DNA of 49,972 nt from a virus, in the IMG/VR virus record IMGVR_UViG_3300034082_001508, positions 1-49,972 of that record; one strand, 5' to 3'. The notes under the pieces are model-generated. The model did no database searches and had not been told where the DNA came from. It worked only from the letters and a program-made list of their open reading frames with translations. Below are positions 490 through 47,301 of the stretch, piece by piece. Position numbers and translations under genes: made by a program. Each line of letters starts with the position of its first letter. Within the stretch, counting starts at the first letter, position 1.

Positions 490-660
490 AAATATACCCC
501 CACTCCCCCCATCTTTTACCGGGGGGTTTTTTTTTAACCCCTCCCCTAAACACCCCCCATACCCCCTCCCTATCCCCCGTGGGGGTATCCCCCCTCCCCT
601 CCCTCCCCCTTATATAACCCAAATAGGGGGGATAATCCTCTCGATGACGTGTATGGGGGA
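490..660. other. C-tract cluster (G-runs on the minus strand)
   Basis: In an otherwise AT-rich genome this stretch carries many runs of 4-6 C on the plus strand, so the minus strand has many closely spaced G-runs able in principle to form G-quadruplexes. It includes a hairpin CCCCC-GT-GGGGG near 573-585. Open frames crossing it are proline-rich artefacts. I see no gene in 327-806 apart from a possible leader peptide at 807. Confidence 0.55.
505..535 (+). terminator. Rho-independent terminator
   Basis: A CCCCCC run at 505-510 can pair with GGGGGG at 521-526 across a short loop and is followed by nine T residues. It would end transcription arriving from the left-edge gene. Confidence 0.6.
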
Positions 661-695
661 AAAAAACTTTATATGAAAATCGTTTTAAAATTTCT

Positions 696-768
696 AAAAA
701 AATTTTTGGAAAAAATCCCCCGGTATAAATGGGGTGGTCAAATAGTGAAAAAAAATTTTTGGAAAAAA
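696..768. repeat. 20-nt A/T direct repeat
   Basis: The same 20-mer AAAAAAATTTTTGGAAAAAA occurs at 696-715 and 749-768. A-tracts phased like this are usually curved DNA and may be easily melted. The pair lies just upstream of the promoter at 770. Confidence 0.7.
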
Positions 769-769
769 A

Positions 770-800
770 TTGATTGTAAAAGGGGAATATCTTATCTTTG
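770..800 (+). promoter_or_regulatory. Bacteroidota-type promoter
   Basis: TTG at 770-772, a 20-nt spacer, then TATCTTTG at 793-800, matching the Bacteroidota vegetative consensus TTG-N19/21-TAnnTTTG. It drives the gene at 859. A 16-codon open frame (807-857, MEKIYSICGNKKPKEK) lies between promoter and gene and may be a leader peptide. Confidence 0.75.
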
Positions 801-858
801 TTGACTATGGAAAAGATATATTCAATTTGTGGGAATAAAAAACCGAAAGAAAAGTAAT

Positions 859-1347
859 ATGATGATAAGTAAATTAAAGATGTTAAAGATTGGGGAGACC
901 TTGAAGGATTTTAAGTGTTTGGTTTCAAGATTTAATGAGGTAAAGGGTGATAGAATATTATTGAGGGAGTTCTGTTTAAGAAATAGAAATCCCATATGGG
1001 ATTTAACGGGTATAAATTATTTCAAGACCGGATTAAAATCTGAGGGATTGATTCGGGATGGGGGTAAGAAAAAGGATGACCATTATATTCAAAGGTCTTT
1101 ATGTATGGAGATTATCTTTAAGGAATTGAATGCTAACCCGGATATGAATGTTGATGAATTTATTGAATTACTTCGTAAGTATTCATCTACAGTTCAATTG
1201 ACGGAAGAGGAACATAAGAAAATAACATTATATACGAGGAATACTGATATTATGAATTATACGGCTTATGGTGATGTTGGTATAATTGTTAAAGGTCTTA
1301 AGGAGATTATTAATTCTACCCCCGCTTATGTAGTTGGGGGTTTGTGA
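859..1347 (+). CDS. Unknown 162-residue protein
   Basis: Hypothetical protein of 162 residues starting MMISKLKMLKIGETLKDF. I chose ATG 859 over an upstream GTG (829) because GTG starts are otherwise not needed here and the 16-codon leader frame ends at 857. The protein is basic at the N-terminus; residues around GGKKKDDHYIQRSLC and DMNVDEFIELLRKYSS look like a mixed alpha/beta or helical fold. No catalytic motif is recognised. It has its own host-type promoter and is followed by a C-rich post-stop element. Confidence 0.6.
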   Translation: MMISKLKMLKIGETLKDFKCLVSRFNEVKGDRILLREFCLRNRNPIWDLTGINYFKTGLKSEGLIRDGGKKKDDHYIQRSLCMEIIFKELNANPDMNVDEFIELLRKYSSTVQLTEEEHKKITLYTRNTDIMNYTAYGDVGIIVKGLKEIINSTPAYVVGGL

Positions 1348-1395
1348 ACCCGAACTCCCTCCGGTCGGGATTCAATCCCCCCGCCCCCTTTTTTT
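1348..1395 (+). repeat. C-rich post-stop element, copy A
   Basis: Begins immediately after TGA: CTCCCTCCGGTCGGG, then ATTCAATCCCCCCGCCCCC and a T-run. Two related copies follow the stops of the genes ending at 2822 and 9171. The C-run plus T-run could terminate transcription by pairing with upstream G-runs. The TTCAA-TCC stretch resembles a tRNA T-arm, but no tRNA can be folded. Confidence 0.5.
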
Positions 1396-1407
1396 ATGAA
1401 AATTAAT

Positions 1408-1415
1408 ATATTTAT
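1408..1415 (+). promoter_or_regulatory. ATATTTAT box 4 nt before a start codon
   Basis: ATATTTAT followed by TAGT and then ATG at 1420. This is the first example of the recurrent box-N4-ATG arrangement (putative late promoter giving a leaderless mRNA), and it decides the start of the next gene. Confidence 0.5.
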
Positions 1416-1419
1416 TAGT

Positions 1420-2013
1420 ATGAAAAATTTGTTAAACGAAGAGATTGGTAAAATTAAAAAAATGATGGGTATATCTCATAAACCAATCAACTTACCTTAT
1501 CACGAACATCTTATTGAAATTTATTCTGATATTCCCACCGAAATTACTGAAAACTCTGAGGTTGATGATAGATATATTGTTATAAATAAAATTAAACATA
1601 ACGATTTTATTCATAGTCCAAAATTATTTTTGAAGTCTATTAGAAAATCATCTCGTGGTGAGATGTTAACCGAATATTCTTTGGAAGAATTGGAGGATAT
1701 GTTAACATTTAAGTTGGATGGTTATGATATTGGTTATGCTTTGAAGAAAGGTGATGGTGATGAGTATAATGAAATTGTGTCTGTTTTCAATAATTCGGGA
1801 ATTAAAGGTATTGGTGATGCGTTAATTAAGTCAGCAATTAAAAATGGTGGTCGTTATTTGGACCATTATGATGGATTTCTAAGTGGTTTTTACTCCAAAC
1901 ACGGGTTTGAGGAGTATAAACGAGATAAATTTGACCCCCAATATGACCCAAACGGTGAATTTAGAGATAAATACGGAGAATCTGATATTATCTATAGAAA
2001 ATACAACACTTAA
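1420..2013 (+). CDS. GNAT-like acetyltransferase domain protein with capsid-targeting-like N-terminus
   Basis: 197 residues starting MKNLLNEEIGKIKKMMG; the LLNE tetrapeptide fits the (I/L)-x-E signature shared by many proteins here. An upstream in-frame ATG at 1396 is less likely because the ATATTTAT box is exactly 4 nt before 1420. The C-terminal half resembles a compact GNAT fold: an IGYAL strand, the segment NNSGIKGIGDALIKSAIK (cofactor-loop-like followed by a helix) and FYSKHGFEEYKRD, the usual closing strand-turn of acetyltransferases. A substrate cannot be inferred. Family assignment is by pattern only. Confidence 0.55.
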   Translation: MKNLLNEEIGKIKKMMGISHKPINLPYHEHLIEIYSDIPTEITENSEVDDRYIVINKIKHNDFIHSPKLFLKSIRKSSRGEMLTEYSLEELEDMLTFKLDGYDIGYALKKGDGDEYNEIVSVFNNSGIKGIGDALIKSAIKNGGRYLDHYDGFLSGFYSKHGFEEYKRDKFDPQYDPNGEFRDKYGESDIIYRKYNT

Positions 2014-2051
2014 TAATTGTTTTTGATGTTAATTTATCTTATTATTTTAAT

Positions 2052-2822
2052 ATGAACGTATTAACAAACACTTTATTGGGGAACGATGTAATCATTGACA
2101 TAATTGAAGGTCAAATGATTCTACATATTCCACATTCAAAAACAGAAATACCATTTTATGATGGATTTAATATGAATTATATTGAAAATGAGACCAAATT
2201 ATTGGTTGATTTTGCTACTGATAAAATTTTTGACATCCCTAATGTCGAATCTCTAACTTTTGAGTATAATAGAATATTTTGTGACGTTGAAAGATTGGAC
2301 GATAATGATGAACCATTATTTAATCTTGGTAGAGGTTTTTTTTATACCAAAACTGATGACGGAAAAGACCTTAGAGTGTTAGATGATATGGTGAAAAAAA
2401 AGATTAAAGAAGAATTTTATGATATTCACCATAATAAATTGAATCAAATGGTTGAATATAGGTTGAATGAGTATGGTTGTGCAGTAATTATTGATTGTCA
2501 TTCGTTTAGTGATATCCCATTTATAACTGATTTAGATAAAAGTGAGGTTAGACCGGACATTTGTTTAGGTGTTGATGATTTTCACACACCAAAATGGTTA
2601 ATTAATCAAATTAAATCATATTTTGAATATCATAATTTATCTGTTAAAATAAATTCCCCGTACTCAGGGACAATAATTCCATTAAAATATTATAATAAAA
2701 ACAAAAATGTTATTGGAATTATGATTGAGGTGAATCGAAAACTTTATATGGATGAATTTATTGTTGATGATAATAAGGTTGATGAATTAAATTCTATTAT
2801 TAAAAAATCTTTATTCATATAA
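2052..2822 (+). CDS. N-formylglutamate amidohydrolase-family enzyme
   Basis: 256 residues. Family landmarks are visible in order: HIPHS near residue 25, a FEYNRIFCDVERL segment, IIDCHSF in the middle, an INSPYSGT loop and GIMIEVNRKLYMDE near the C-terminus, i.e. the His, Asp/His and Glu positions expected of this metal-dependent hydrolase. Known relatives hydrolyse N-formylglutamate; in a phage the substrate may differ, and a wall or peptide amide is possible. It has no signal peptide. It is followed by copy B of the C-rich element. Confidence 0.75.
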   Translation: MNVLTNTLLGNDVIIDIIEGQMILHIPHSKTEIPFYDGFNMNYIENETKLLVDFATDKIFDIPNVESLTFEYNRIFCDVERLDDNDEPLFNLGRGFFYTKTDDGKDLRVLDDMVKKKIKEEFYDIHHNKLNQMVEYRLNEYGCAVIIDCHSFSDIPFITDLDKSEVRPDICLGVDDFHTPKWLINQIKSYFEYHNLSVKINSPYSGTIIPLKYYNKNKNVIGIMIEVNRKLYMDEFIVDDNKVDELNSIIKKSLFI

Positions 2823-2870
2823 CCCGGACTCGTTTCACTCGTATTCAAATCCCCCCGCCCCCTTTTTTTT
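2823..2870 (+). repeat. C-rich post-stop element, copy B
   Basis: Starts right after TAA; contains ATTCAAATCCCCCCGCCCCC followed by eight T residues. It shares its 3' half almost exactly with copy A. Confidence 0.5.
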
Positions 2871-2878
2871 GGATAATA

Positions 2879-2910
2879 TTTGGTGGAATGAAATGTTTGT
2901 ATTATCTTTG
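2879..2910 (+). promoter_or_regulatory. Bacteroidota-type promoter
   Basis: TTTG at 2879-2882, 20-nt spacer, TATCTTTG at 2903-2910. The spacer (ATGAAATGTTTGT core) is nearly identical to that of the promoter at 3444, so the two promoters look duplicated. It places the start of the next gene at 2929, not at upstream in-frame codons. Confidence 0.75.
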
Positions 2911-2928
2911 TTCTTTAAATTTTATAAA

Positions 2929-3441
2929 ATGGTTGATTATCAAACTTACGAAGAATTACCTAAACGGATTCAATACTATGTGAACTCAATAAAAGAAACG
3001 GGTTATGACGATATTAGAAGTTTTCAATTCCCTTGTAAATATTTTGGGGGTAATTCTTTTGGATGTAGTATTTGGATTGATGCTGAAGAAATGGTAAAAG
3101 GTCTCATTCCTTACCGAGGTGTGATTCAAAATATGATAACGAATAGTTTAACAAAAAATATATTCAATATTGGGTATTTGCATATTTCTGTTCATTATAA
3201 AAACAAACAACAGTTGGGTAAGAAATTCCTCCCGGAATTAAAAAAACGATTAAAGGAATCTCTTGCCGGTAAATATATTCATTCTGTTCGTTTTGATGAA
3301 AACTCTCGTAACAATGACCCCGAAGTTTTTGTTGTGTTAAGACGTGATAACGATATTGAAACTTGGGGTATTGTGAAAAATATTCTTGAGGATTTCAAAA
3401 TTGAAAAAGGTTATCCTAATTTGTATGTTAAAATTTCTTAA
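2929..3441 (+). CDS. Unknown 170-residue protein
   Basis: 170 residues starting MVDYQTYEELPKRIQYYV; earlier in-frame starts fall inside the promoter. The sequence contains CKYFGGNSFGCSIWIDAEEM, a basic stretch KKFLPELKKRLKESLAGKY and a C-terminal strand-rich region (VFVVLRRDNDIETWGIV). It has a mixed alpha/beta appearance and no known catalytic motif. It sits alone between two near-identical promoters. Confidence 0.6.
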   Translation: MVDYQTYEELPKRIQYYVNSIKETGYDDIRSFQFPCKYFGGNSFGCSIWIDAEEMVKGLIPYRGVIQNMITNSLTKNIFNIGYLHISVHYKNKQQLGKKFLPELKKRLKESLAGKYIHSVRFDENSRNNDPEVFVVLRRDNDIETWGIVKNILEDFKIEKGYPNLYVKIS

Positions 3442-3443
3442 TA

Positions 3444-3475
3444 TTTGGCCGTATGAAATGTTTGTTATATCTTTG
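3444..3475 (+). promoter_or_regulatory. Bacteroidota-type promoter for the 3493-8502 gene run
   Basis: TTTG at 3444-3447, 20-nt spacer, TATCTTTG at 3468-3475. It likely drives the small gene at 3493 and the paralogous array behind it. Confidence 0.75.
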
Positions 3476-3492
3476 TCGGAAATAAATTGATT

Positions 3493-3639
3493 ATGAGAGA
3501 TAGAATAAAAAAATGGTGGAATAGGACTTGGTCCAATTGGGAGGTTGATACTAAGAGTAAGTGGTATTTTTATATTATACTTAAGAGAACATCCAACGAT
3601 GGTTTAATCCAATTTAAAAAAATAAAAACTGGGGTATGA
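3493..3639 (+). CDS. Small tryptophan-rich protein (48 aa)
   Basis: A 48-codon frame, MRDRIKKWWNRTWSNWEVD..., basic and Trp-rich, starting 18 nt after the promoter -7 box and ending in TGA that overlaps the next ATG by 4 nt (ATGA), a typical translational-coupling geometry. Function unknown; the amphipathic Trp/Lys composition would allow membrane or nucleic-acid contact. Confidence 0.6.
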   Translation: MRDRIKKWWNRTWSNWEVDTKSKWYFYIILKRTSNDGLIQFKKIKTGV

Positions 3640-4163
3640 AAAACATTTATTTAATTCCGACAGATAAACGGACTCGATTACATTATGACCACACCGGTTT
3701 ATTTTTATCTCACCATTATCAGGTAAGTAAGGAGATTAATTCAATTGTTGAAGGCAGATATATCTACATTACATCGGATGAATACATTGGGTTGAATTGG
3801 TATATTGATGGTGGCTGGGTAAGAAAGGGTGTTATTGATGATAAGGATTATTGGTCTGTTAGAAAGGATTATAAAAAAATCGTTATAACCAATGACCCCA
3901 AGTTAATTAAGGATGGCGTTCAGGATATTGGGGACGGTGTGATGGATTGGTTCATTGAGAACCCCACCTGTGAATACTTCAATATTGAACAGTACAATTC
4001 ATATGGGATTGATAATTGGAAGTACTTGGTAACTCTTCCAACGGATAAGATTGACTTTGAAAAGGAGTTATCTAAATGGGGTTACAATAAGGGTAATTCA
4101 ATTGACGTTGAGATTTTGGTTAATGAGATACTTCCAAAATTATTTGAACAATTTAAAAAATAA
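3636..4163 (+). CDS. Divergent member of the MKNIxxLPTDK paralogous family (N-terminal module)
   Basis: 175 residues, start MKNIYLIPTDKRTRL. It contains the family landmarks YITSDEY, KKIVITNDPKLIKDGVQDI, DWFIENPTCEYFNI and a terminal LFEQFKK, but lacks the C-terminal KQETLEEA...KWQQ...YSEEE module. It is the most diverged copy and uses different codons from the 4172-7022 copies, suggesting it was resident before those arrived. This family is common in Bacteroidota phage sequences; function unknown. Confidence 0.65.
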   Translation: MKNIYLIPTDKRTRLHYDHTGLFLSHHYQVSKEINSIVEGRYIYITSDEYIGLNWYIDGGWVRKGVIDDKDYWSVRKDYKKIVITNDPKLIKDGVQDIGDGVMDWFIENPTCEYFNIEQYNSYGIDNWKYLVTLPTDKIDFEKELSKWGYNKGNSIDVEILVNEILPKLFEQFKK

Positions 4164-4171
4164 ATAAGATT

Positions 4172-5017
4172 ATGAAAAACATACACGTATTAGGAACAGA
4201 TAAACCAACTTTTTTACATAAAAGTACAAAAACAGGTATTTTAATGAAATCATCCGCTTGTATTAATGATATGAAACAAGCACAAGGAATGAACATTTAC
4301 ATCACTTCTGATGAAATAGTTACAAAATATTCAAATGGTTTGTATTTTATTGATATTTACACAAACACAAGACATATATTTTCACCGATTTATATTAATA
4401 AAGATACTATTGCTTTTGGAAAATTTCACACATATATGAATGATGGTGGTATGTGTAAAAAAATCATCCTAACAACAGACCAAGACTTAATCAAAAATGG
4501 TGTACAAGCTATTGATGATGAGTTTTTAGAATGGTTTGTTAAAAATCCAAGTTGTGAAAAAATTAGAACTTATTTGACTAAAGTTTTACAAAGTGGTAAT
4601 CCAACATTTTATAAAGATGATTACAGAATAATCATTCCAAAAGAAGAACATAAATGTACTTGTGAAAATGGACACCCATATAACAATCTTTGTTGTAAAA
4701 TACATGGTAAATTCATAAAAGAAGAACCTAAACAAAAATATAAAGACTGTAATGGCAATTTAACAGATTGTACTTGTATAGAAGATACTATTGAAATGAA
4801 ACAAGAAACACTTGAAGAAGTAAGAGATTTATCATATTATAAAGCTAATGCTGAAGAAGATTATTTAGCAGTTCCAATAAGCGTATTGAGATATATTTCT
4901 CAATTAGAGCAACAAGAAAGAAGTTATAGTGAGGAAGATTTAGAAGTAGCTTATTTTGAAGGTAGAGAAGGATTATATTCATTCAATGATTGGTTTGAAC
5001 AATTTAAAAAGAAATAA
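4172..5017 (+). CDS. Two-module MKNIHVLxTDK family protein
   Basis: 281 residues. The N-terminal module carries MKNIHVLGTDKPTFLH, YITSDE, KKIILTTDQDLIKNGVQAI and EWFVKNPSCEKI. A middle insert is Cys-rich (CTCENGHPYNNLCCKIHG, CNGNLTDCTC; about six to eight Cys/His that could bind zinc). The C-terminal module is MKQETLEEV...RSYSEEDLEVAYFEG...DWFEQFKKK. The following paralog starts 4 nt after its stop. Function unknown; recombination among modules is evident. Confidence 0.65.
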   Translation: MKNIHVLGTDKPTFLHKSTKTGILMKSSACINDMKQAQGMNIYITSDEIVTKYSNGLYFIDIYTNTRHIFSPIYINKDTIAFGKFHTYMNDGGMCKKIILTTDQDLIKNGVQAIDDEFLEWFVKNPSCEKIRTYLTKVLQSGNPTFYKDDYRIIIPKEEHKCTCENGHPYNNLCCKIHGKFIKEEPKQKYKDCNGNLTDCTCIEDTIEMKQETLEEVRDLSYYKANAEEDYLAVPISVLRYISQLEQQERSYSEEDLEVAYFEGREGLYSFNDWFEQFKKK

Positions 5018-5021
5018 AATT

Positions 5022-5981
5022 ATGAAAAACATACACATTTTACCAACAGATAAACCAAGTAGGTTATGGATGACTAAATTAGGTAATCTAACAAGATGCC
5101 ACGATATAAAACCTATTAAAGAAGCATTAGGAAATAATGTAAATAACTACATCACTTCTGATGAAGAAATTAAAGAAGGAAATTGGTTTGTAAAACCTAA
5201 ATATTCAAAAGCAATTAAAATTGGATATGAGATTAGTCAAGCTGATTCATCTTTTTTTGGAGGGTATGGTTATGATTGGACTGATTGTAAAAAAATCATC
5301 TTAACAACAGACCAAGACTTAATCAAAGACGGTGTACAAGCTATTGATGATGAGTTTTTAGAATGGTTTGTTAAAAATCCAAGTTGTGAGTTTGTTGAAT
5401 TGAATAGAAACTATAATCGGGGTAATGGAAAATATTATTACAAAATCATCATTCCAAAAGAAGAAGCTAAACAATTATTTACAGACTACCCAATTATTGA
5501 ATTAGGTGATGACGAATTTAAAGAAGCACCAATAAGAGAATGTGAATTACTTTCTTTTGATGATGATGATAATAAGTACTGCTATGTAAAAGTAGGAGGT
5601 ATTGAAAAAGAAATTAAACGTTGTTATATATACCCACAAAAAGGTAGATGCGGTGACGTTAATTGTGTTTCAATTAAAGAAATAAAAGAGTTGTTAAAAG
5701 AAGAACCTAAACAAGATGCTATTGAATATTCATTAAATGCTTTTAAAGTTCCAAAAGAATATTTTGGAAAACAAGAAACACTTGGAGAAGCATTATCTGA
5801 ACATATAAAAGATATAAAATATCCTACTCTAATACAATGTGCTAAATTTGGTGCTAAATGGCAACAACAGAGAAGTTATAGTGAGGAAGAAGTTTTAGAC
5901 TTATTACAAGATTTTGCTAATGACTTATCTGATAATGTAATTAATATTAAATTTTGGTTTGAAAAATTTAAAAACAAATAA
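5022..5981 (+). CDS. Two-module MKNIHILPTDK family protein
   Basis: 319 residues from ATG 5022 (MKNIHILPTDKPSRLW); a longer in-frame reading from 4956 is rejected because it overlaps the upstream gene and the family start is at 5022. Order: YITSDEEIKEGNW, KKIILTTDQDLIKDGVQAI, EWFVKNPSCEFVE, YYKIIIPKEE linker, a central acidic insert with a possible zinc pair, KVPKEYFGKQETLGEA, KWQQQRSYSEEEVLDLL and terminal FWFEKFKNK. Long nucleotide stretches match the flanking paralogs, so the array probably expanded recently. Confidence 0.65.
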   Translation: MKNIHILPTDKPSRLWMTKLGNLTRCHDIKPIKEALGNNVNNYITSDEEIKEGNWFVKPKYSKAIKIGYEISQADSSFFGGYGYDWTDCKKIILTTDQDLIKDGVQAIDDEFLEWFVKNPSCEFVELNRNYNRGNGKYYYKIIIPKEEAKQLFTDYPIIELGDDEFKEAPIRECELLSFDDDDNKYCYVKVGGIEKEIKRCYIYPQKGRCGDVNCVSIKEIKELLKEEPKQDAIEYSLNAFKVPKEYFGKQETLGEALSEHIKDIKYPTLIQCAKFGAKWQQQRSYSEEEVLDLLQDFANDLSDNVINIKFWFEKFKNK

Positions 5982-5982
5982 G

Positions 5983-6207
5983 ATGAAAGAAACACTTGAA
6001 GAAGCTGCTGAAAGAAGATTTCCAAGTAAAACGGAAATGTACGATGTTTTTATTGAAGGCTCTAAATGGCAACAAGAACAAGACAAGAATAAGTATAGTG
6101 AGGAAGATATGCACAATTTAATGGATGAATACCAAAATTGGTTATTTAATACTAATACCGTAGTATTAACTTTTAGAGAATGGTTTGAACAATTTAAAAA
6201 CAAATAA
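5983..6207 (+). CDS. Free-standing C-terminal module of the MKNIHxLPTDK family
   Basis: 74 residues from ATG 5983: MKETLEEAAERRFPSK...GSKWQQEQDKNKYSEEDM...FREWFEQFKNK. It is only the C-terminal module of the neighbours, starting 1 nt after the upstream stop, which shows that the module is an independent unit. It is predicted helical and charged. Function unknown. Confidence 0.6.
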   Translation: MKETLEEAAERRFPSKTEMYDVFIEGSKWQQEQDKNKYSEEDMHNLMDEYQNWLFNTNTVVLTFREWFEQFKNK

Positions 6208-6211
6208 AATT

Positions 6212-7222
6212 ATGAAAAACGTACACGTACTACCAACAGATAAAACGAGTAGGTTAGTTTTAGATGTAAACAATAATTTAGCATTAGCCTTTAATAAATC
6301 TATTGAAGAAAATGCGCTGTATAAAAGAACCATCTACATCACTAATGATGAAGAAATTAAAGAAAATACCAATGTAAAAGACAAATGGGTAATTTCTGAA
6401 TATGGTTTTGTTGTAAAAGCAGATAGGATTGAAAACAATTACCTTATACACTCAACTGGAGGTTCTAATTTTTTACATCATTATAAATTTATAATTATGA
6501 CAACAGACCCTCAACTTATTCAAGATGGTGTACAACCTATTGATGATGAGTTTTTAGAATTTATAGTTAAGAATCCAAGTTGTGAGTGGGTTGAGGTTGA
6601 CAAAAATTGGAATTACCCATTAGATAAAAGTTGGGAATATAAATTAAGAATCATTCCAAAAGAAGAACCTAAACAACTATTTACAAAAGGAGATAAAGTA
6701 TTGTTTACAGGAAAAATGTTAGATGAAAATGTTGTTGATAAAGTAGTAACAGTATTTTATACATTAGGTAGAGGAGAGATAGATGATATGTCAGATATAA
6801 TGGATGAATACACTCACGTTTATAGAGTTTGGAATAAAGATTTAAAACACACTTCAAAAGAAGAACCATTAAGTTTTGAAGAATTTAGAAAAATTGCTTC
6901 TAAAGAATTACTTGAAAAATTTGATACTGATTGTTTAGAATATTCAGAAGATGGAGATTTTGATAATTACTTTTACGCTAATTGTAAATATTGGGAAAGT
7001 AAACTAAAAGAAGAACCTAAACAAGAATTTGGTTATACTACTAAGATGGGTGTTGAGGTTAAGGATGAGATGGTTAGACCACTTATGGTTCCAAAGAAAT
7101 ATTTTGGTGAGGTGGAACATCCGGATTATAGTTCAGTGTTTGATTTTTTATCCGATAAGGATTACTTAACAGACAAACGAGAAGTTATTGAGAAAGAATT
7201 TAAAGAATATTTAAAAAAATAA
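6212..7222 (+). CDS. MKNVHVLPTDK family protein with extended insert
   Basis: 336 residues from ATG 6212 (MKNVHVLPTDKTSRLV). N-terminal landmarks: YITNDEEIKEN, FIIMTTDPQLIQDGVQPI, EFIVKNPSCEWVE, LRIIPKEEPKQLFTKGDKVLF. The last part (KEEPKQEFGYTTKMGVEVKDEM...VPKKYFGEVEHPDY) changes codon style near 7030, as if two sources were joined. It lacks the KWQQ/YSEEE module. Function unknown. Confidence 0.6.
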   Translation: MKNVHVLPTDKTSRLVLDVNNNLALAFNKSIEENALYKRTIYITNDEEIKENTNVKDKWVISEYGFVVKADRIENNYLIHSTGGSNFLHHYKFIIMTTDPQLIQDGVQPIDDEFLEFIVKNPSCEWVEVDKNWNYPLDKSWEYKLRIIPKEEPKQLFTKGDKVLFTGKMLDENVVDKVVTVFYTLGRGEIDDMSDIMDEYTHVYRVWNKDLKHTSKEEPLSFEEFRKIASKELLEKFDTDCLEYSEDGDFDNYFYANCKYWESKLKEEPKQEFGYTTKMGVEVKDEMVRPLMVPKKYFGEVEHPDYSSVFDFLSDKDYLTDKREVIEKEFKEYLKK

Positions 7223-7225
7223 AAT

Positions 7226-7699
7226 ATGAGTAAATGTTATGACAACCCCGAGTTTGACGACCAAGAACCTGAAACACAAAATACATGGAAACAATCTATA
7301 CCAAAAGACAATTTTGACAATGCTTTGGAAAGTTTCAAGGAATCGTTAATTAAGAAGTGTGACCCCACCCTTAGTGAGAAGTTGGAAAAGGTTGTCTCTA
7401 AGGAACCAAGTAAGTTTTGGTCCGAGAGTGATGAGAGGGTTAGAATTAAAGAAGAGAAAAAACTTAGAGAGGCGTTTGATGAAATATACGACTCAATTGA
7501 TTTTAGAGAATTTGACTTTGCGTCGTTTAAGTTGGGAGTTAAATGGGGACAACAACAAGACGAGAATAAGTATAGTGAGGAAGATATGAGAGATGCTCAT
7601 CAAATGGGTGCTATTTTTGCTTATGGAAAAAAGGAAGTAACAAGAGAGGATAGAGTAAAACATTTTGAGGGATGGTTTAATCAAATTAAAAATAAATAA
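7226..7699 (+). CDS. Unknown protein ending in the KWxQQ/YSEEDM module
   Basis: 157 residues. The first half is charged and unrelated to its neighbours (MSKCYDNPEFDDQEPE...). The second half carries the shared C-terminal module: FKLGVKWGQQQDENKYSEEDM...FEGWFNQIKNK, with the same nucleotide core AAGTATAGTGAGGAAGATAT seen near 6093. It is a further shuffled combination. The stop overlaps the next ATG by 1 nt. Confidence 0.6.
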   Translation: MSKCYDNPEFDDQEPETQNTWKQSIPKDNFDNALESFKESLIKKCDPTLSEKLEKVVSKEPSKFWSESDERVRIKEEKKLREAFDEIYDSIDFREFDFASFKLGVKWGQQQDENKYSEEDMRDAHQMGAIFAYGKKEVTREDRVKHFEGWFNQIKNK

Positions 7700-8313
7700 T
7701 GGAGTATTGTGAATTACCTAAGGATTCGTTATTAACGAAACTACCCAATTTTAATTATGTTGGTGAGGATAAGAAGAGATTGAATGTTGTAATTGCCGGT
7801 GGTGCTGTCCGGGATAGTTTATTTGGTGACGATTATAGTGATATCGACATATTTGGTCTTACCAAAGGTGAATTAGATTCATTTGTGGAGATAAATCTGT
7901 CAAAATCACAAGGATATAAGATGGTTTATTTCAACGAGAACCTAAGAACTTACAGAAAAGGGAAGATTAAGGTTCAAATTATCTACCGAGAGTACGAAAA
8001 ACTAACAGATATTATTGATTTGTTTGATTTTACCGTATGTCAGTTTATGTATGACGGTGAAAAGGTCATTTGTAACCCCTCCGGAATACTAGATGTTCAT
8101 CATAAGAGGATTATTATCAACCATTTGGAACCTTTATTTGTTTTTGATTCGTTAAGACGGGTTCAAAAGTACGTTCAGAAGGGATATACTATCTGTAATG
8201 GGGGAATTAAGGACATTTTGGACAAATGTCGGGAATTAACACAGGAACAATACGACGAAAACGTAGAATTTTACCCAAATACTGAGGAATATAGGATAAT
8301 TAGGTTCGATTAA
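7699..8313 (+). CDS. Nucleotidyltransferase-fold protein (CCA-adding/poly(A)-polymerase-like head)
   Basis: 204 residues. The Pol-beta-type signature is clear: VIAGGAVRDSLFGDDYSDIDIF at about residues 31-52, with the GG turn and the metal-binding pair D48/D50, and a possible third carboxylate on the later strand (FDFTVCQFMY). RNA-binding body domains of true CCA enzymes are absent, so this is a short head-only enzyme that could transfer a nucleotide to RNA, a protein or a small molecule. It lies at the end of the paralogous array. Confidence 0.75.
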   Translation: MEYCELPKDSLLTKLPNFNYVGEDKKRLNVVIAGGAVRDSLFGDDYSDIDIFGLTKGELDSFVEINLSKSQGYKMVYFNENLRTYRKGKIKVQIIYREYEKLTDIIDLFDFTVCQFMYDGEKVICNPSGILDVHHKRIIINHLEPLFVFDSLRRVQKYVQKGYTICNGGIKDILDKCRELTQEQYDENVEFYPNTEEYRIIRFD

Positions 8314-8331
8314 AATTAAAAAAAATAAGAT

Positions 8332-8502
8332 ATGAAAACAATTTTGTGGTTTATAGTTAGTCATTTGGTGTTATATGTGTTGGGAAGTTTTATTGCTTGG
8401 GATTTGAACCCTTTGAATTGGTGGTTATTCACCTCATCCTTTGGTAGGGTGTTGTTTGTTATTATTGAATTGTTTTGGATTGGTAATTCTTTGAGTGATT
8501 AA
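8332..8502 (+). CDS. Small two-helix membrane protein (56 aa)
   Basis: MKTILWFIVSHLVLYVLGSF forms one hydrophobic helix, and a second follows around VLFVIIELFWIG. Only 56 codons; start A-rich context AAATAAGATATG. Unknown inner-membrane protein; superinfection or lysis roles are possible but unsupported. Confidence 0.6.
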   Translation: MKTILWFIVSHLVLYVLGSFIAWDLNPLNWWLFTSSFGRVLFVIIELFWIGNSLSD

Positions 8503-8541
8503 CCCTTTTTTATTTCAAAATAATTTATTATACTTGTTACT

Positions 8542-8946
8542 ATGGAAATAGAAGAATCAAAATTAACGACTGAGGAGATTAGACAATTATATGATAATGC
8601 CTTCAAAAGAGAGATTGTGTTACCTGAAACATATAAACTTGTGATATCAAAAATGTGTTCTGAGATTGAAGAGGTTTTGGTTCAGGGTTATGATACTACC
8701 ACGGTATATAATCCAAATAATTTTGAACCGATGAAGAGATTTTTGGTAAATGTTAATATTCGATTTAAACCGGAATGTGCCATTTCTGGAAATAAGAAAA
8801 AATATGAAGAACAATTAAACAATTATTTCACAATGACTTTTGGTAGTCAGATTGATTTTATTAAGTTCAGTGTTCTATCATTCATTATCCCTCCCGAGAA
8901 GAGTAATGAAGATAAATTTTTTGAATTGTTTGGTATAAATAAATAA
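8542..8946 (+). CDS. Unknown 134-residue protein
   Basis: Starts MEIEESKLTTEEIRQLYDNA. Soluble, mixed charge, with a helical N-terminus and strand-like VLVQGYDTTTVY, RFLVNVNIRFKPE and FIKFSVLSFIIPPE segments. No recognisable family. It precedes another small gene by 9 nt. Confidence 0.55.
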   Translation: MEIEESKLTTEEIRQLYDNAFKREIVLPETYKLVISKMCSEIEEVLVQGYDTTTVYNPNNFEPMKRFLVNVNIRFKPECAISGNKKKYEEQLNNYFTMTFGSQIDFIKFSVLSFIIPPEKSNEDKFFELFGINK

Positions 8947-8955
8947 ATAAATATT

Positions 8956-9171
8956 ATGAGTGAATTAGTTAATGTCGGTAAGACAATGAAGGGAACCTAT
9001 CAACAAATTTGTGATGGAGGATTTTTGACCCAATTCCCGGGGTCAGAGTTTAGAAATGAATCCAAGATAACAGGATTCGGTGATGTGTATGTTAAAAGTG
9101 ATTTGGTTCAAACTTTTAATGAATTGAAAGAACAAATGACTGAGGCTAACGGAAGTTTCCCCATTTTGTAA
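8956..9171 (+). CDS. Unknown small protein (71 aa)
   Basis: MSELVNVGKTMKGTYQQICDGG... with a Gly/Phe-rich middle and a helical C-terminus. Function unknown. Its TAA is immediately followed by copy C of the C-rich element. Confidence 0.5.
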   Translation: MSELVNVGKTMKGTYQQICDGGFLTQFPGSEFRNESKITGFGDVYVKSDLVQTFNELKEQMTEANGSFPIL

Positions 9172-9214
9172 CCCATACTCCCTCCGGTCGATTTCAAACC
9201 CCCTCTCCTTTTTT
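9172..9214 (+). repeat. C-rich post-stop element, copy C
   Basis: CTCCCTCCGGTCGATTTCAA followed by ACCCCCTCTCC and a T-run. Its 5' half matches copy A (CTCCCTCCGGTCG) and its 3' half is degenerate. Confidence 0.45.
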
Positions 9215-9225
9215 GGTGTTGGGGG

Positions 9226-9233
9226 ATATTTAT
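9226..9233 (+). promoter_or_regulatory. ATATTTAT box 4 nt before ATG
   Basis: GGGGGATATTTAT, then TTAT and ATG at 9238. The same GGGGGATATTTATTTATATG string recurs at 13403-13422. Confidence 0.55.
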
Positions 9234-9237
9234 TTAT

Positions 9238-9555
9238 ATGGGTAAGAAGAAACAAATCGTGTTTAAGTATTTTGATATAATATATTCCAGTTATAAGAAA
9301 CATGGGAGACGGTCAATAAATATGAAATCACCTCACGTTCTATTTGAATATATGGATGATAATGGTCGTACCGCTTTTGATTATGACACAGAAAGAGAAT
9401 CAATACAATTTGATTATGGTGATTTTTACACCGCCCAAAAAATGTTTGGGGTTTCTATACCTGATTTGGTGGATATCTGTAAAGAATATGTTGCCAATAA
9501 ATTTGATATACCTAAAGCAGCCAATTCAAGTTTTCTTCCTAAAAGATTAAATTAA
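9238..9555 (+). CDS. Small KYFD...KFDIP family protein
   Basis: 105 residues, MGKKKQIVFKYFDIIYSS. It resembles proteins at 11745 and 13138 in an N-terminal (V/I)xKYxD strand and a C-terminal helix-turn VANKFDIPK (compare WFESRYDLPV, WFSEKYNLEV). The middle is acidic and aromatic. Unknown function; expressed from an ATATTTAT box and followed 1 nt later by a capsid-targeting-like gene. Confidence 0.55.
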   Translation: MGKKKQIVFKYFDIIYSSYKKHGRRSINMKSPHVLFEYMDDNGRTAFDYDTERESIQFDYGDFYTAQKMFGVSIPDLVDICKEYVANKFDIPKAANSSFLPKRLN

Positions 9556-9556
9556 T

Positions 9557-9922
9557 ATGAAACTAATAATAACAGAAAATAAATTTAAGAGTTTAATAAA
9601 TCGGGTGGTAGGATATGATTTGTCCGACCATATTGAGATGATTACCAATTGGATTGAATTGGGTTCCGAAGGTCAAAAATTATTTACAGATGGTAGAGAT
9701 GAGCTTAGATGGTTACTTAATAATTTTGGTCCGATGTATTTATTTACAATTGATGATAAAAAGTATCTTGTACAAAATCAAAATAAGGAATATGGTTGGT
9801 TAATTTTAAGTTATGAGAAAAATAGGAGAATTAATGAAGATGATTTTCTAAAAATTCTTGGTATTCGTTCATTGGGAATTGATTTTTTAAATAAAATAAT
9901 CAATGAATTTGTTGAAGAATGA
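9557..9922 (+). CDS. Unknown protein with MKLIITE N-terminus
   Basis: 121 residues, start MKLIITENKFKSLINRVVG. The first seven residues carry the recurrent I-I-T-E motif. The remainder (EMITNWIELGSEGQKLF..., YLFTIDDKKYLVQNQ) looks like a small mixed domain without known motifs. The stop overlaps the next ATG by 4 nt. Candidate internal head or virion protein on the strength of the leader only. Confidence 0.55.
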   Translation: MKLIITENKFKSLINRVVGYDLSDHIEMITNWIELGSEGQKLFTDGRDELRWLLNNFGPMYLFTIDDKKYLVQNQNKEYGWLILSYEKNRRINEDDFLKILGIRSLGIDFLNKIINEFVEE

Positions 9923-10239
9923 AAATACTAATAACTGAGAGACAGAGTAAATTATTAATGGAGAATTTACCGCCAGGAATCCGTAGAAGGTATAATTATA
10001 ATACGATTAAAGACCATTTGGATTTTACCGTTATAGAGTCCATTAGCCCTTGTGATTATTTTGGTTCAAGTTATTTTATTACTGAGATGTGTAATATGAT
10101 TACGAATGATTTAATTGAGGATTTTGAAGATGAAACCCAACAAATTTTGACCTCAAAAGTTAAAGATAATATGTATTATTTTATTGTTGATAATTTTGCG
10201 GACTATCTTCAAGATATTTACGATAAACAATGCCAATAA
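9919..10239 (+). CDS. Unknown protein with MKILITE N-terminus
   Basis: 106 residues, MKILITERQSKLLMENLPPG. Same leader signature as the overlapping upstream gene, which implies a shared destination. The body is acidic with aromatic pairs (CDYFGSSYFITEMC, YYFIVDNFADYLQDIY). Function unknown. Confidence 0.55.
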   Translation: MKILITERQSKLLMENLPPGIRRRYNYNTIKDHLDFTVIESISPCDYFGSSYFITEMCNMITNDLIEDFEDETQQILTSKVKDNMYYFIVDNFADYLQDIYDKQCQ

Positions 10240-10265
10240 CCATATATTTATATTAAACAATTAAA

Positions 10266-10730
10266 ATGAAAAAAATTATAAAATTAACGGAATCTGATTT
10301 AAGAAATATTGTGATGAGAATCATTAACGAACAATTTGATTCTGAATACTACGACATTATTTTGGATTTATATAACGAAGTTGGGCTTGAGGGTATGACT
10401 GATGAAGAAATTAAATATCTGAAAAGTGGTGGTGAGAGCAATGTCCCTGAAAGATTTTTGGGTGGTGATTTAAATATTGATTTTGATGACGAATCGGAAG
10501 GCGATTATGATGGTCTTGATAGATTCAAAGAAATTATGGATGGTTTCAATCATAAGATTGTCGATACCGCTCCGGATGGTAAGTTAAGAGTTGTCTTTAA
10601 AGAAAGACCTGAGATATTAGAGAAACTTAAAGGTGTGGTTTCCGAATCATCAATTGAAGTTAGACAAGGTCATATAATTATTCTTGTTCCTGAGAATTGG
10701 ACTGATGATATCTTTGGAGAAGAAATATAA
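10266..10730 (+). CDS. Acidic protein with MKKIIKLTESDL leader
   Basis: 154 residues. The leader MKKIIKLTESDLRNIVMRI is followed by INE-Q, so two (L/I)-x-E sites are present (LTE at 7-9 and INE near 20-22). The mature part is very acidic (GGDLNIDFDDESEGDYDG) with a C-terminal alpha/beta region. An ATATTTAT box lies at 10244-10251, 14 nt before ATG. Possible scaffold-like or internal head protein; inference. Confidence 0.55.
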   Translation: MKKIIKLTESDLRNIVMRIINEQFDSEYYDIILDLYNEVGLEGMTDEEIKYLKSGGESNVPERFLGGDLNIDFDDESEGDYDGLDRFKEIMDGFNHKIVDTAPDGKLRVVFKERPEILEKLKGVVSESSIEVRQGHIIILVPENWTDDIFGEEI

Positions 10731-10751
10731 ACATACAAATAAATAAAAATT

Positions 10752-11147
10752 ATGAATAGAAGTTTTAGTAAAATTAGACACATACAAGAATCCAACATGA
10801 GATTGGAACAAAGAATGTTATCGGAACAAGTGACACCAACAACCACAAGTGCAGCAACACCTACGATGAACATTACGACAACACCGGCTAAATCTCCAAT
10901 GTTTGGAACACCTGAACAAAGAGCTGCAGCCAAAGCTAAACGAGATACTCAAGCTCAAAAAAATGAGGCAGCATTTGTAAAGGCGGCTCAAGATGCTGGA
11001 ATGACAAGAGAAGAATATTCTGATTGGTTAGATAAAGAAAATAAAAAACCAACTTTAGGTCAAGCTAATCTTAACGATACAGGGAGAAAAGTAAGAAATA
11101 ATAATCCCCCACCTTGTAAAAGAGGTAAATGTACCGGAGAGAATTAA
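10752..11147 (+). CDS. Low-complexity protein with RMLSE-Q leader
   Basis: 131 residues. N-terminal MNRSFSKIRHIQESNMRLEQ ends at RMLSE-QVTP, a good (I/L)-x-E site. A Thr/Ala/Pro-rich linker follows (TPTTTSAATPTMNITTTPAK), then a helical AAAKAKRDTQAQKNEAAF segment and a basic Cys-containing tail (CKRGKCTGEN). Architecture fits a processed, flexible virion protein. Ends just before a strong terminator. Confidence 0.55.
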   Translation: MNRSFSKIRHIQESNMRLEQRMLSEQVTPTTTSAATPTMNITTTPAKSPMFGTPEQRAAAKAKRDTQAQKNEAAFVKAAQDAGMTREEYSDWLDKENKKPTLGQANLNDTGRKVRNNNPPPCKRGKCTGEN

Positions 11148-11161
11148 GATAGTTAAATTAT

Positions 11162-11188
11162 AACCCCACCTTGACAGTGGGGTTTTTT
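11162..11188 (+). terminator. Rho-independent terminator
   Basis: AACCCCAC / GTGGGGTT stem with a short loop and a T-run; it closes the 9238-11147 group. Confidence 0.8.
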
Positions 11189-11201
11189 ATTTGTATCTTT
11201 A
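11171..11201 (+). promoter_or_regulatory. Promoter embedded in the terminator
   Basis: TTG at 11171-11173 lies in the terminator loop; 20 nt further is TATCTTTA (11194-11201), one mismatch from TAnnTTTG. It would start the 11219 unit. Confidence 0.55.
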
Positions 11202-11218
11202 TCTAAAACTTATACATT

Positions 11219-11401
11219 ATGTCAAAACATTATCAGGTAGATTATTATTTAATCTATGAAGGAGGGGGTAAAGCGTCTCAATCAACAACACTAATTATGG
11301 AATCAGACTCTGATTCGGAAGCAATTAGAAAAATTAAAGGTAAGAATAATTTAACATCCAATGTTAAAGAAATTCAAATAATTAAAATAAAAAAATCTTA
11401 A
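11219..11401 (+). CDS. Small unknown protein (60 aa)
   Basis: MSKHYQVDYYLIYEGGGKAS... with an acidic DSDSEAIRKIKGK helix and a KEIQIIKIKKS strand at the end; looks like a compact beta-alpha-beta fold. Four nucleotides before the next gene. Function unknown. Confidence 0.55.
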   Translation: MSKHYQVDYYLIYEGGGKASQSTTLIMESDSDSEAIRKIKGKNNLTSNVKEIQIIKIKKS

Positions 11402-11405
11402 CATT

Positions 11406-11690
11406 ATGTCAGAACAAACACCAAAAACAATTGCTGTATTCGCTACAGAATATTATGAAACATCAATCACCCGAGAACCGGTAGAATTAAACCTTGATGA
11501 CTATCCTGAATTGGAAGGTATGACAACACAAGAAGCTATTGATTATGTTGAATCAAATGCCTGGGAAATGGCCTCATCAAATCCTGATATGTATGAATCA
11601 TTGGGAGAAGAGTTAAATGATATGGATATTCGTAGAGATAAAATCACGAATGAAACCCAAGAAATCAATGCTGTCGATAAAATGTTTTAA
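11406..11690 (+). CDS. Small acidic protein, paralog of the 18939-19280 product
   Basis: 94 residues. The stretch TEYYETSITREPVELNLDDY with PELEGMTTQEAIDYVESNAWEM matches in order the minus-strand protein at 18939 (TEYYTSHNANTPVELDSEKF, PNFKGETEEDFLQYISENLDEW). The two form a paralogous pair on opposite strands. Function unknown; the acidic character suggests a decoy or inhibitor protein, but this is speculation. Confidence 0.55.
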   Translation: MSEQTPKTIAVFATEYYETSITREPVELNLDDYPELEGMTTQEAIDYVESNAWEMASSNPDMYESLGEELNDMDIRRDKITNETQEINAVDKMF

Positions 11691-11697
11691 TAAAAAA

Positions 11698-11730
11698 ATC
11701 CCCAATTATTTTTTAGTTGGGGATTTTTTT
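11698..11730 (+). terminator. Rho-independent terminator
   Basis: AATCCCCAA / TTGGGGATT stem with an A/T loop and a run of seven T. Confidence 0.8.
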
Positions 11731-11732
11731 AT

Positions 11733-11740
11733 TATCTTTG
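11733..11740 (+). promoter_or_regulatory. TATCTTTG box 4 nt before ATG
   Basis: TATCTTTG followed by TCGA and ATG at 11745. No clear TTG at the proper distance because the terminator occupies that position. The 4-nt gap implies a leaderless mRNA. Confidence 0.55.
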
Positions 11741-11744
11741 TCGA

Positions 11745-12005
11745 ATGAAAAAATGGGTGTTCAAATATTTTGATACGTTTTGTTATGGGGAACTAATTGA
11801 GGATGAAAAAGACCCTAATTGGACTAAACCAAATTCGTCTTATGAAGGATTTGGATATTCAATAGATGCAAAATATGTTTTTTACAATCAGTCATTGGAA
11901 AATATCGTTTTTTCTATGTTTTGTGTTGGAAGGACTGATTTTAAAAAATATTTGGGTGAGTGGTTTGAAAGTAGATATGATTTACCGGTATCGTTGGTTT
12001 TGTAA
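11745..12005 (+). CDS. Small KYFD...WFExxYDLPV family protein
   Basis: 86 residues, MKKWVFKYFDTFCYGELIED. It ends with LGEWFESRYDLPVSLVL, the C-terminal signature shared with products at 13138, 17020 and, more weakly, 9238. Mostly beta-strand-like before that helix. Unknown function; paralogous family in this genome. Confidence 0.55.
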   Translation: MKKWVFKYFDTFCYGELIEDEKDPNWTKPNSSYEGFGYSIDAKYVFYNQSLENIVFSMFCVGRTDFKKYLGEWFESRYDLPVSLVL

Positions 12006-12022
12006 TTAAAAAAGTTAGAAAT

Positions 12023-12451
12023 ATGAAAAAAGTATTAGTGTTATTAATGTTAGGGTTTTTAATAGGTTGTCAAGGAATTCCACCGGACAAAGATTTACAT
12101 AGTGAAAAAATTTATCTAAGACAATTGGTAAATCGTAATGTAACGGAAACCCACACATCAGGTATGTTCTTTTTGGTTGCTGGTTCAATGAGTTCTGACA
12201 CTGAAACTTCTACGGTTGTAAAACTTATGGGTGAGGTTAAAGGGGAATATCGGTTTATGCAATTTGATTTTACAAAAGTTAGAATCAGAATTGATAATAA
12301 GGTGACCACTCCGTATATTGTTTTGAATTACAATAATCGTGATGTTGTAGAAACTGATTACCTATTAAAATATCCGTATTATATTGAGAGTATTACCATC
12401 GTATGTCCGGAACAATATCTACCTGAGAAATTATTACCAATTCAAATATAA
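12023..12451 (+). CDS. Predicted lipoprotein
   Basis: 142 residues. MKKVLVLLMLGFLIG-C is a classic lipoprotein signal with lipobox LIGC, cleaved before Cys17. The mature part is beta-rich (FMQFDFTKVRIRIDNKV, TPYIVLNYNNRDVVETDY). Likely anchored in the host envelope; phage lipoproteins often act in superinfection exclusion or lysis, which is inference here. Confidence 0.7.
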   Translation: MKKVLVLLMLGFLIGCQGIPPDKDLHSEKIYLRQLVNRNVTETHTSGMFFLVAGSMSSDTETSTVVKLMGEVKGEYRFMQFDFTKVRIRIDNKVTTPYIVLNYNNRDVVETDYLLKYPYYIESITIVCPEQYLPEKLLPIQI

Positions 12452-14858: not shown

Positions 14859-14886
14859 AACCCCATCCTAATCGGTGGGGTTTTTT
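14859..14886. terminator. Bidirectional terminator
   Basis: AACCCCA / TGGGGTT stem, T-run on the plus side and A-run on the other. It serves the convergent genes ending at 14853 (+) and 14868 (-). Confidence 0.75.
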
Positions 14887-25120: not shown

Positions 25121-25358
25121 AGAAAAATTTATTGAAAAAGTAATTGAAAATGTTAAACACCTAACGGGAAAAATTATTGAATTTATACCTATGGAATTTA
25201 ACGTTGGTATGTTTATAATAATTGATGGTGTTTCTAAGGGTTTAACTAATTCAGTTTTACGTGATTATAAAAACACTATCGATTATTATGAAATAGATAT
25301 TATCACGGATTTTAGTAATATGATTATTAAAGAATTTAATTTGAAATCAAATGACTAA
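25113..25358 (+). CDS. Unknown small protein (81 aa)
   Basis: Start ATG 25113 (MDKEKFIEKVIENVKHLTGK). Alpha/beta pattern with VGMFIIIDGVSKGLTN in the middle. Overlaps the repeat-protein gene by 8 nt, so it may be translated together with it. Confidence 0.5.
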   Translation: MDKEKFIEKVIENVKHLTGKIIEFIPMEFNVGMFIIIDGVSKGLTNSVLRDYKNTIDYYEIDIITDFSNMIIKEFNLKSND

Positions 25359-47011: not shown

Positions 47012-47301
47012 TGGTAAATTTTGAAAATATACAAGAAGGGTGGGTTAAATTCTCACGAATACCTTGTGTGGAAGGATGTGTTGATGTTTGGTATGGTGAT
47101 TGTGCTTATAATCCAAATAGTGAAATTGAACCTCGTTGGAGCCTAAACTCATTCACAACATTTATTAGATTAAATGGTGAAGGAGAATGGTTTCCAAACG
47201 GATACAGAAGAGGGATTAAAGGGTTTGTTGGTGAAATGGCTGAAGTATACACATCACAAGAAATTTGGGACGAAATAAGTAAATTTAATGATGAAAAATA
47301 A
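47011..47301 (+). CDS. Unknown 96-residue protein
   Basis: MVNFENIQEGWVKFSRIPCV...; Trp/Gly-rich (GEGEWFPNGYRRGIKGFVGE), likely beta. Overlaps the next gene by 11 nt. Confidence 0.5.
   Translation: MVNFENIQEGWVKFSRIPCVEGCVDVWYGDCAYNPNSEIEPRWSLNSFTTFIRLNGEGEWFPNGYRRGIKGFVGEMAEVYTSQEIWDEISKFNDEK

Follow-up and report, generated by a model that had tools for sequence, protein, structure and literature searches.

Why should a phage carry, head to tail, a row of small genes that agree almost letter for letter in some stretches and not at all in others, and what might their products do? The question is raised by the genes on the + strand between positions 3636 and 7699 of IMG/VR record IMGVR_UViG_3300034082_001508, a phage record of 49,972 bases that was analyzed at its full length and is called the window here. 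A first-pass annotation had described these genes as an expanding array of two-module proteins with reshuffled parts. In our analysis, whole modules are not what is exchanged; the units are short hypervariable cassettes lying between conserved frameworks, a level that annotation had missed. Framework DNA is conserved down to its silent positions, and single cassettes have been swapped between unrelated phages.

Two modules in varying combinations

Profile searches with an N-terminal module (M1, ~150 residues, from MKNIHVLPTDKPSRL to YKIIIPKEEPKQ) and a C-terminal module (M2, ~80 residues, with QETLEEAA, GAKWQQERMYSEEE, and WFEQFKKK) bore out the proposed two-module build at 3636, 4172, 5022, 5983, 6212, 7226, and 47291; genes are named here by their start positions. 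M1 matched 3636-4163, 4172-5017, 5022-5981, and 6212-7222, and M2 matched 4172-5017, 5022-5981, 5983-6207, 7226-7699, and 47291-47626, so that the make-up suggested for the individual genes also held. The first gene (3636-4163), a resident-style copy, has M1 residues 1 to 138 followed by a tail ending in LFEQFKK, with no M2 recognized by the profile. It is followed by a 281-residue M1-M2 protein with a Cys-rich middle (4172-5017) and by a 319-residue protein (5022-5981) in which M1 is joined through an exchangeable middle (5478-5768), homologous to a middle in locus L002, to an M2 (5769-5978) predicted to be helical (predicted local distance difference test score, pLDDT, ~73 to 82). The start given earlier for this third gene, 5025, had to give way to the ATG at 5022; our alignments of it took positions 5025 to 5978, that is, the protein minus its first Met. 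Gene 5983 (5983-6207, 74 residues) consists of M2 only, and the junction running from its M2 end to the next M1 start (6167-6256) is conserved in DNA. Gene 6212 (6212-7222, 336 residues) has M1 and a middle with no M2 recognized, and gene 7226 (7226-7699), resident in style by its codons, joins an unrelated first half to an M2 at ~7451-7696. The distant copy (47291-47626, also on the + strand) is an M2-only protein of 111 residues.

Across the window and 174 further loci (175 sequences in all), 82 complete open frames were M1-M2, 59 were M2 alone, and 33 were M1 alone, with a few repeats. In one locus, L035, a single open frame of 518 residues (2380-3936) carries three tandem M1 modules.

Frameworks alternate with hypervariable segments

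Codon-by-codon alignment resolved M1 into four conserved frameworks (FR1 to FR4) alternating with three hypervariable segments (V1 to V3), and M2 into three frameworks alternating with two hypervariable segments (V4 and V5). In gene 5022, with borders taken from profile columns, these are FR1 (5022-5066, MKNIHILPTDKPSRL), V1 (5067-5138), FR2 (5139-5183, ..YITSDEEIKEGN), V2 (5184-5288), FR3 (5289-5390, KKIILTTDQDLIKDGVQAIDDEFLEWFVKNPSCE, a DNA block of ~100 bp), V3 (5391-5438), and FR4 (5439-5477, YKIIIPKEEAKQ). The FR3 block of gene 4172 (4457-4557) is 88 to 97% identical in DNA in many loci whose flanks are otherwise unrelated.

For cross-lineage comparison, sequences were placed in one lineage when at least 85% identical over at least 700 bp, and non-overlapping stretches of one genome were merged by hand, which gave 87 lineages and 8,244 cross-lineage pairs; the annotated phage loci L085 to L089 were excluded from the V-segment and M1 codon counts. 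Mean cross-lineage identity of V1, V2, and V3 was 0.19 to 0.21, near the level of unrelated sequences, and V lengths spanned 10 to 56 residues. The segments fell into 85, 99, and 95 allele clusters for V1, V2, and V3, respectively; Chao1 estimates of 207, 367, and 390 indicate that the pool of alleles is far from sampled. Matched V alleles had ratios of nonsynonymous to synonymous polymorphism (pN/pS) of 0.23 to 0.37, and the frameworks had ratios of 0.25 to 0.56. Thus, V segments and frameworks are all coding and under purifying constraint.

Framework DNA is conserved beyond the protein

Codon identity, scored at identical residues, was higher in the frameworks than in controls drawn from other genes of these phages: 0.839 versus 0.661 at 80 to 90% protein identity (16 control pairs) and 0.812 versus 0.632 at 70 to 80% (39 control pairs). 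Rare codons are fixed by position, with Ile ATC at 91% and 87% in framework columns and 6% in variable columns, Asp GAC at 92% versus 11%, and Lys AAG at 86% versus 13%. The frameworks of M2 likewise keep position-specific rare codons.

Single cassettes are shared between otherwise different genes

We scored two genes as a mosaic pair when one V segment was shared at 70% identity or more and another was below 40%. By this measure, M1 gave 61 mosaic pairs among the 8,244 (62 before the hand merge), 22 of which share the segment at 90% or more, and M2 gave 31 among 9,172; the M2 count, the codon controls, and the linkage test below were run before that merge. Full-length sharing was all but absent: all three M1 segments were shared in 1 cross-lineage pair, and both M2 segments in none. 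After shuffling of the V segments, 0 of 21,048 comparisons reached 70% identity (maximum, 0.53). The two halves of one V segment were shared together in 106 of 129 cases, whereas the nearest V half across a framework was shared along with them in 4 of 42 cases for FR2 and 4 of 41 for FR3. The breaks therefore sit in the frameworks, and the cassettes stay whole.

Pairwise DNA comparison showed such breakpoints in the window genes themselves, as the first-pass annotation had expected of recombination. They are pieced together from parts that match different phages. Gene 4172 has a V1 79% like that of L101, a V2 87% like that of L065, and a V3 unlike either, and its high DNA identity with L065 is confined to ~4286-4545. 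In gene 5022, the FR1-V1-FR2 stretch is ~95 to 97% identical in DNA to L098 over 5042-5160, and the V1 proteins are 100% identical, whereas V2 and V3 agree at 17% and 24%; from FR3 into the middle, the same gene follows L002 (~85 to 97% over most of 5286-5700), and 5695-5775 is 97.5% identical to L006/L058. Gene 5983 shares V5 with L062 at 100% and V4 at 12% (DNA identity, 92% over 6071-6210). The junction at 6167-6256 is 89% identical to L098/L099 over 91 bp and 90% identical to L026 over 80 bp. In gene 6212, V3 is 94% like that of L112 and L075, the other V segments are unlike theirs, and 6855-7026 is 97.7% identical to L006/L058. We are confident, close to certain, that this shuffling of cassettes is real.

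The block between the flanking copies looks imported

The array had been proposed to be recently acquired, and its codons support this: where framework residues are identical, genes 4172, 5022, and 6212 agree with other phages in 0.834 to 0.845 of codons, while the resident copy 3636 agrees in 0.525. The accompanying claim of a changed codon style stood for part of the array. When 4172 to ~7030 was pooled, G-ending codons made up 29 of 327 (8.9%) of six NNA/NNG choices, compared with 15.3 to 33.5% in 230 same-sized sliding windows over 26 other genes of this phage; within gene 6212, the style returns to the resident type near 7030. The claim did not extend to the flanking copies, which have ordinary codon style (24 of 49 G-ending in 3636 and 24 of 65 in 7226), nor to single genes, since a per-gene codon-usage G-test gave G per degree of freedom of 1.0 to 2.0 in the array and 0.8 to 1.8 elsewhere. 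DNA was shared with window 4100-7300 at an expectation value (E) of 1e-8 or less in 161 of 172 loci, a figure biased upward because one of these proteins had served as the query that found most of the loci, and with the rest of the window in 33.

The notion that the array is expanding was not supported. Framework codon identity was 0.808 in 36 same-locus paralogue pairs and 0.817 in 6,036 pairs from different phages, and the same-locus value was the higher one in 6 of 14 loci, so growth by local duplication was rejected. Because same-locus paralogues are no more alike than outside copies, it seems that the array was put together from parts brought in from elsewhere. The simplest account is that frequent exchange through a shared pool keeps the frameworks uniform and that the block from 4172 to ~7030 was imported between the resident copies 3636 and 7226.

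Distribution, distant relatives, and a second family

A search with one window protein yielded 286 related stretches in viral contigs (80 kept), and one with an M1 alignment yielded 447 (80 kept, as 79 loci). Alignment A1 held 77 nonredundant sequences of 115 M1 matches, and A2 held 76 sequences of 92 listed. M1 was present in 25 of 25 large records, which had been chosen for carrying the family, at 1 to 9 matches per record, and most family frames in them stay open. At the sensitivity of the scan, 4 loci matched among prokaryotes (one genome each of 84,980 species), on metagenome-assembled contigs of Flavobacteriales, Flavobacterium, and Cloacimonadota.

Against isolated phages, a window protein gave no match at 1e-5, and a member nearer the consensus matched weakly (best E, 1e-3). 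Isolated Cellulophaga and Bacteroides phages carry distant M1 relatives, and a Leptolyngbya phage gave one weak match. From this distribution, the host of the window phage is likely to be a member of the Bacteroidota. Four isolate proteins (phi14:2 gp006, phi40:1 gp027, phi17:2 gp143, and DAC23_96) have the pattern LPTE..QHLYITSDDEIKEGD..KIIATTD, and three of the four aligned to A1 with hhalign probabilities of 95.2 to 97.6%; they differ in FR3 (..PSPSQAFIKKYCELGGIDEVLVEY in the Cellulophaga phages). By eye, the C-terminal SWSKEEV..WVEENL of isolates and the TAVEWL..QYYKETY family resembled M2, but hhalign probabilities were ~1% or less, and homology with M2 was not accepted for either. A family without assigned function, phrog_15656, was matched by 64 of the 77 M1 sequences at an E of 0.01 or less, over part of M1 only; in the window protein the best stretch runs from FR2 into FR3.

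A second family, MTHKLI..EIKEGDW-V2-KKIIAHLPLNNSPILEGVDLL (also MTHKLI..HLPLNNSPILEG), has the EIKEGDW-V2-KKII layout of M1 but differs from it at the N- and C-termini and in its other frameworks. Since profile iteration drifted into M1, we gathered this family by motif extraction (42 open frames, 30 with a V2). V2 segments of the two families agreed at 0.5 or more in 8 of 3,660 pairs and in none after shuffling; the V2 of gene 3636 resembles those in L204 (0.60) and L191 (0.52). The pattern is suggestive, but not firm, evidence that V2 cassettes cross between the families.

Two other small families, MTKEFVPYKQAL.. and TAVEWL..QYYKETY (for example, L066:8215-8607 and L112:1785-2015), also occur repeatedly close to the arrays (22 and 21 of 88 lineages). 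In L069 and L081, M1 is joined to an AEQYYSETF-type C-terminus, so several small families may share parts.

Predicted fold and genomic setting

The model of M1 (pLDDT, 86.3; predicted template-modeling score, 0.81) is alpha/beta, with framework strands and a helix at high confidence; the lowest-confidence stretch within M1, save for its C-terminal end, lies in V2 of gene 5022. As we read the predicted secondary structure against the segment borders, the frameworks would form most core strands and the main helix, and V1 and V2 would form hairpins and loops. The full-length model resembled the LexA/CI C-terminal (S24) fold (Z, 2.3 to 2.5; root mean square deviation, 3.9 to 5.1), a resemblance not seen again with the M1-alone model, which gave no row with a Z of 2 or more. 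The best matches of M2, to PRC2 subunits (Z up to 5.7), were set aside, being within the range that the search tool gives as common for helical parts. The closest relatives by model were four uncharacterized proteins of uncultured phages, and Pfam, NCBIfam, and PADLOC searches returned no usable name for the family.

In phi40:1 and phi14:2, the M1 relatives lie among replication and metabolism genes and lack the mass-spectrometry label carried by structural genes; the listed 45-kb stretch around the phi17:2 relative has no mass-spectrometry-labeled gene at all and so adds little. No tail domain was found fused to family members. The M1-M2 protein is probably not a virion component.

In records G001 to G025, 6 of 22 cases had a GIY-YIG endonuclease no more than 5 kb from a family gene, with 2.3 expected (P, 0.015). 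We keep this as a lead, because the family coordinates used were hand typed and incomplete and the records had been chosen for carrying the family.

A shared pool of exchangeable cassettes and the alternatives to it

On the reading we favor, the array genes would be part of a gene pool common to Bacteroidota phages. Each gene would encode a small non-virion protein in which an alpha/beta M1 scaffold with three exchangeable loop or hairpin segments is followed by a swappable middle and a helical C-terminal M2 carrying two more such segments. Phages that share a cell would recombine through the homology of their framework DNA (~45 to 105 bp); such exchange would hold the frameworks uniform, and selection would maintain a wide choice of cassettes. 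The protein would act inside the host cell as a binder, its loops matched to varying host or defense targets and its M2 serving as a common adaptor. Taken as a whole, this account seems to us about evenly poised. Its parts differ in strength: homology-driven exchange in the frameworks is quite probable, whereas a match of the loops to host or defense targets is a tentative proposal. Equally speculative is the wider view that Bacteroidota phages share a combinatorial repertoire of intracellular binders, with frameworks as built-in recombination handles and cassettes swapping across phages and even across two scaffold families, as an analogue of variable-region assembly kept up by an arms race with host defenses.

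Several observations weigh against this account. The binding role is suggested by the layout of the protein alone. Foldseek against the PDB gave no match under an E of 0.001 for the full-length or the M1-only model, and no fused domain or fold match names a target. A PADLOC scan of 84 members gave no convincing defense or anti-defense match; the best, PDC-M64B, occurred in 2 members (9.2e-8) and, in L038 (the single match among 9 rescanned members), covered a 26-residue stretch of the middle part. Trimmed V segments show a mild amino acid bias (N, 1.35x; G, 1.27x; Y, 1.22x) and no strong paratope signature. The isolate relatives are distant, and in the two tested no M2 was recognized by profile. 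The cross-family V2 matches amount to six independent pairs, since L178 and L203 repeat contigs of L028 and L066; two of the six reach 0.7 or more, and two involve gene 3636. As for mechanism, a dedicated recombinase as the common factor was rejected, with a RecA-type gene in 8 of 25 records (5 over the cut-off) and an ERF gene in 1 of 25. The longest exact match between cross-lineage genes was short (median, 27 bp; 95%, 47 bp; 1,200 sampled pairs), so homologous exchange would have to tolerate mismatches.

Some of the same observations invite other explanations. The shuffling could be real but selfish or neutral, the frameworks being a mobile pool with easily recombining ends and the V segments hitchhiking remains of old genes with no selected diversity. 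The spread of frameworks over unrelated phages, the variable number of M1 copies per record, and the nearby GIY-YIG endonucleases fit such a process, but V alleles are under purifying selection, most frames are open, and cassettes stay whole, and we hold it to be rather unlikely. The proteins could also belong to the virion and bind receptors or associate with the tail, with host-range loops open to exchange, as in T-even gp38. In gp38, too, conserved motifs alternate with hypervariable segments; the positions of the phi40:1 and phi14:2 relatives outside the structural region, the missing mass-spectrometry label and tail domain, and the possibility of several copies per genome make this improbable. 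About as improbable is selection on the DNA or RNA itself, through a regulatory or recombination site within the gene, as the cause of low synonymous divergence in place of recent exchange. Silent positions are indeed frozen in all frameworks, but it is every framework and not one site that is frozen, and gene 3636 preserves the pattern at the protein level while using ordinary codons, so such a gene can exist without that framework DNA.

Two further explanations would remove the exchange altogether. Metagenome contigs make up all, or almost all, of the mosaic records, and the framework DNA is repeated within samples, so short reads of co-occurring phages might have been misjoined at them. Yet exact matches reached 55 bp or more in 20 of the 1,200 sampled pairs and 127 bp or more in none, the array in L001 is identical to that of the window with no difference over 618-12204, some arrays recur as one lineage on contigs from different samples (for example, L017/L018/L020 and L035/L037/L039), and codon style also changes across the array; an assembly artifact is thus very unlikely. 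Hypervariable segments in a fixed scaffold also recall a diversity-generating retroelement, in which V segments would arise by targeted mutagenesis. With reverse transcriptase in 0 of 25 records (which may be fragments) and none in the window, whole V alleles common to unrelated phages, low pN/pS, and V lengths that vary from 10 to 56 residues, we give this explanation almost no weight.

Other features of the window

Twelve open frames share a similar start tag (MK-[IL]-[IL]-I-T/S-E..Q or a variant, for example MKKIIKLTESDL), after which their sequences seem unrelated: 9557, 9919, 10266, 13420, 13914, 17020, 17806, 38836, 40055, and 40515 on the + strand and 31871 and 35938 on the - strand. 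The tag resembles the capsid-targeting leader peptides that a prohead protease cuts in T4-like phages. Two repeat proteins have short units, ..DDTLENGVK.. (14868-15890, - strand; similar DNA in L002) and VEEHYKMGVTTT (25351-25956, + strand; similar DNA in L046 and L098). Host-like genes lie at 2052, 21167, 28064, 32341, 36613, and 42400; Pfam identified N-formylglutamate amidohydrolase, ClpP, and a class II tRNA-synthetase-like protein, and thymidylate synthase, an FKBP-type isomerase, and DnaK were recognized by eye only.

Comparison with known systems

The gp38 literature (PMC12529663, PMC6851490) describes hypervariable segments between conserved motifs in T-even gp38, with specificity residing in the hypervariable loops. 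The M1-M2 proteins are likewise small phage proteins with hypervariable segments parted by conserved motifs. They differ in that the M1 framework consensus is not glycine rich and its model is alpha/beta, whereas gp38 is a virion component at the tail-fiber tip whose glycine-rich motifs form a polyglycine sandwich; in that tandem paralogues are possible and distant relatives carry no virion label; and in that exchange spans unrelated phages and perhaps another family. In their survey, Smug et al. (2023; PMC10684548) take fragments at least 70% identical in otherwise unrelated phage proteins as a sign of ongoing shuffling, and receptor-binding proteins are the only ones for which they report recent mosaicism between different taxonomic families or lifestyles. 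In the M1-M2 genes, the exchanged pieces are cassettes of 10 to 56 residues inside the domains of a small, probably nonstructural family. We found no description of the M1-M2 family or of framework-type shuffling in nonstructural phage proteins in the open-license PubMed Central literature, to the extent that its text was accessible.

An abundant small-protein family without a name thus documents, as it happens, the exchange of genes among phages that otherwise have little in common. Its precise cassette borders make it a natural system in which to measure phage recombination at short homologies in the wild, and it offers a short list of variable loops for matching to host and defense proteins. 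If the binding role is true, the family would be an intracellular counterpart of the host-range loop exchange that the survey reports across distant phages only for receptor-binding proteins. What we see is the same kind of process, extended to small, probably nonstructural proteins and to cassettes inside one domain.

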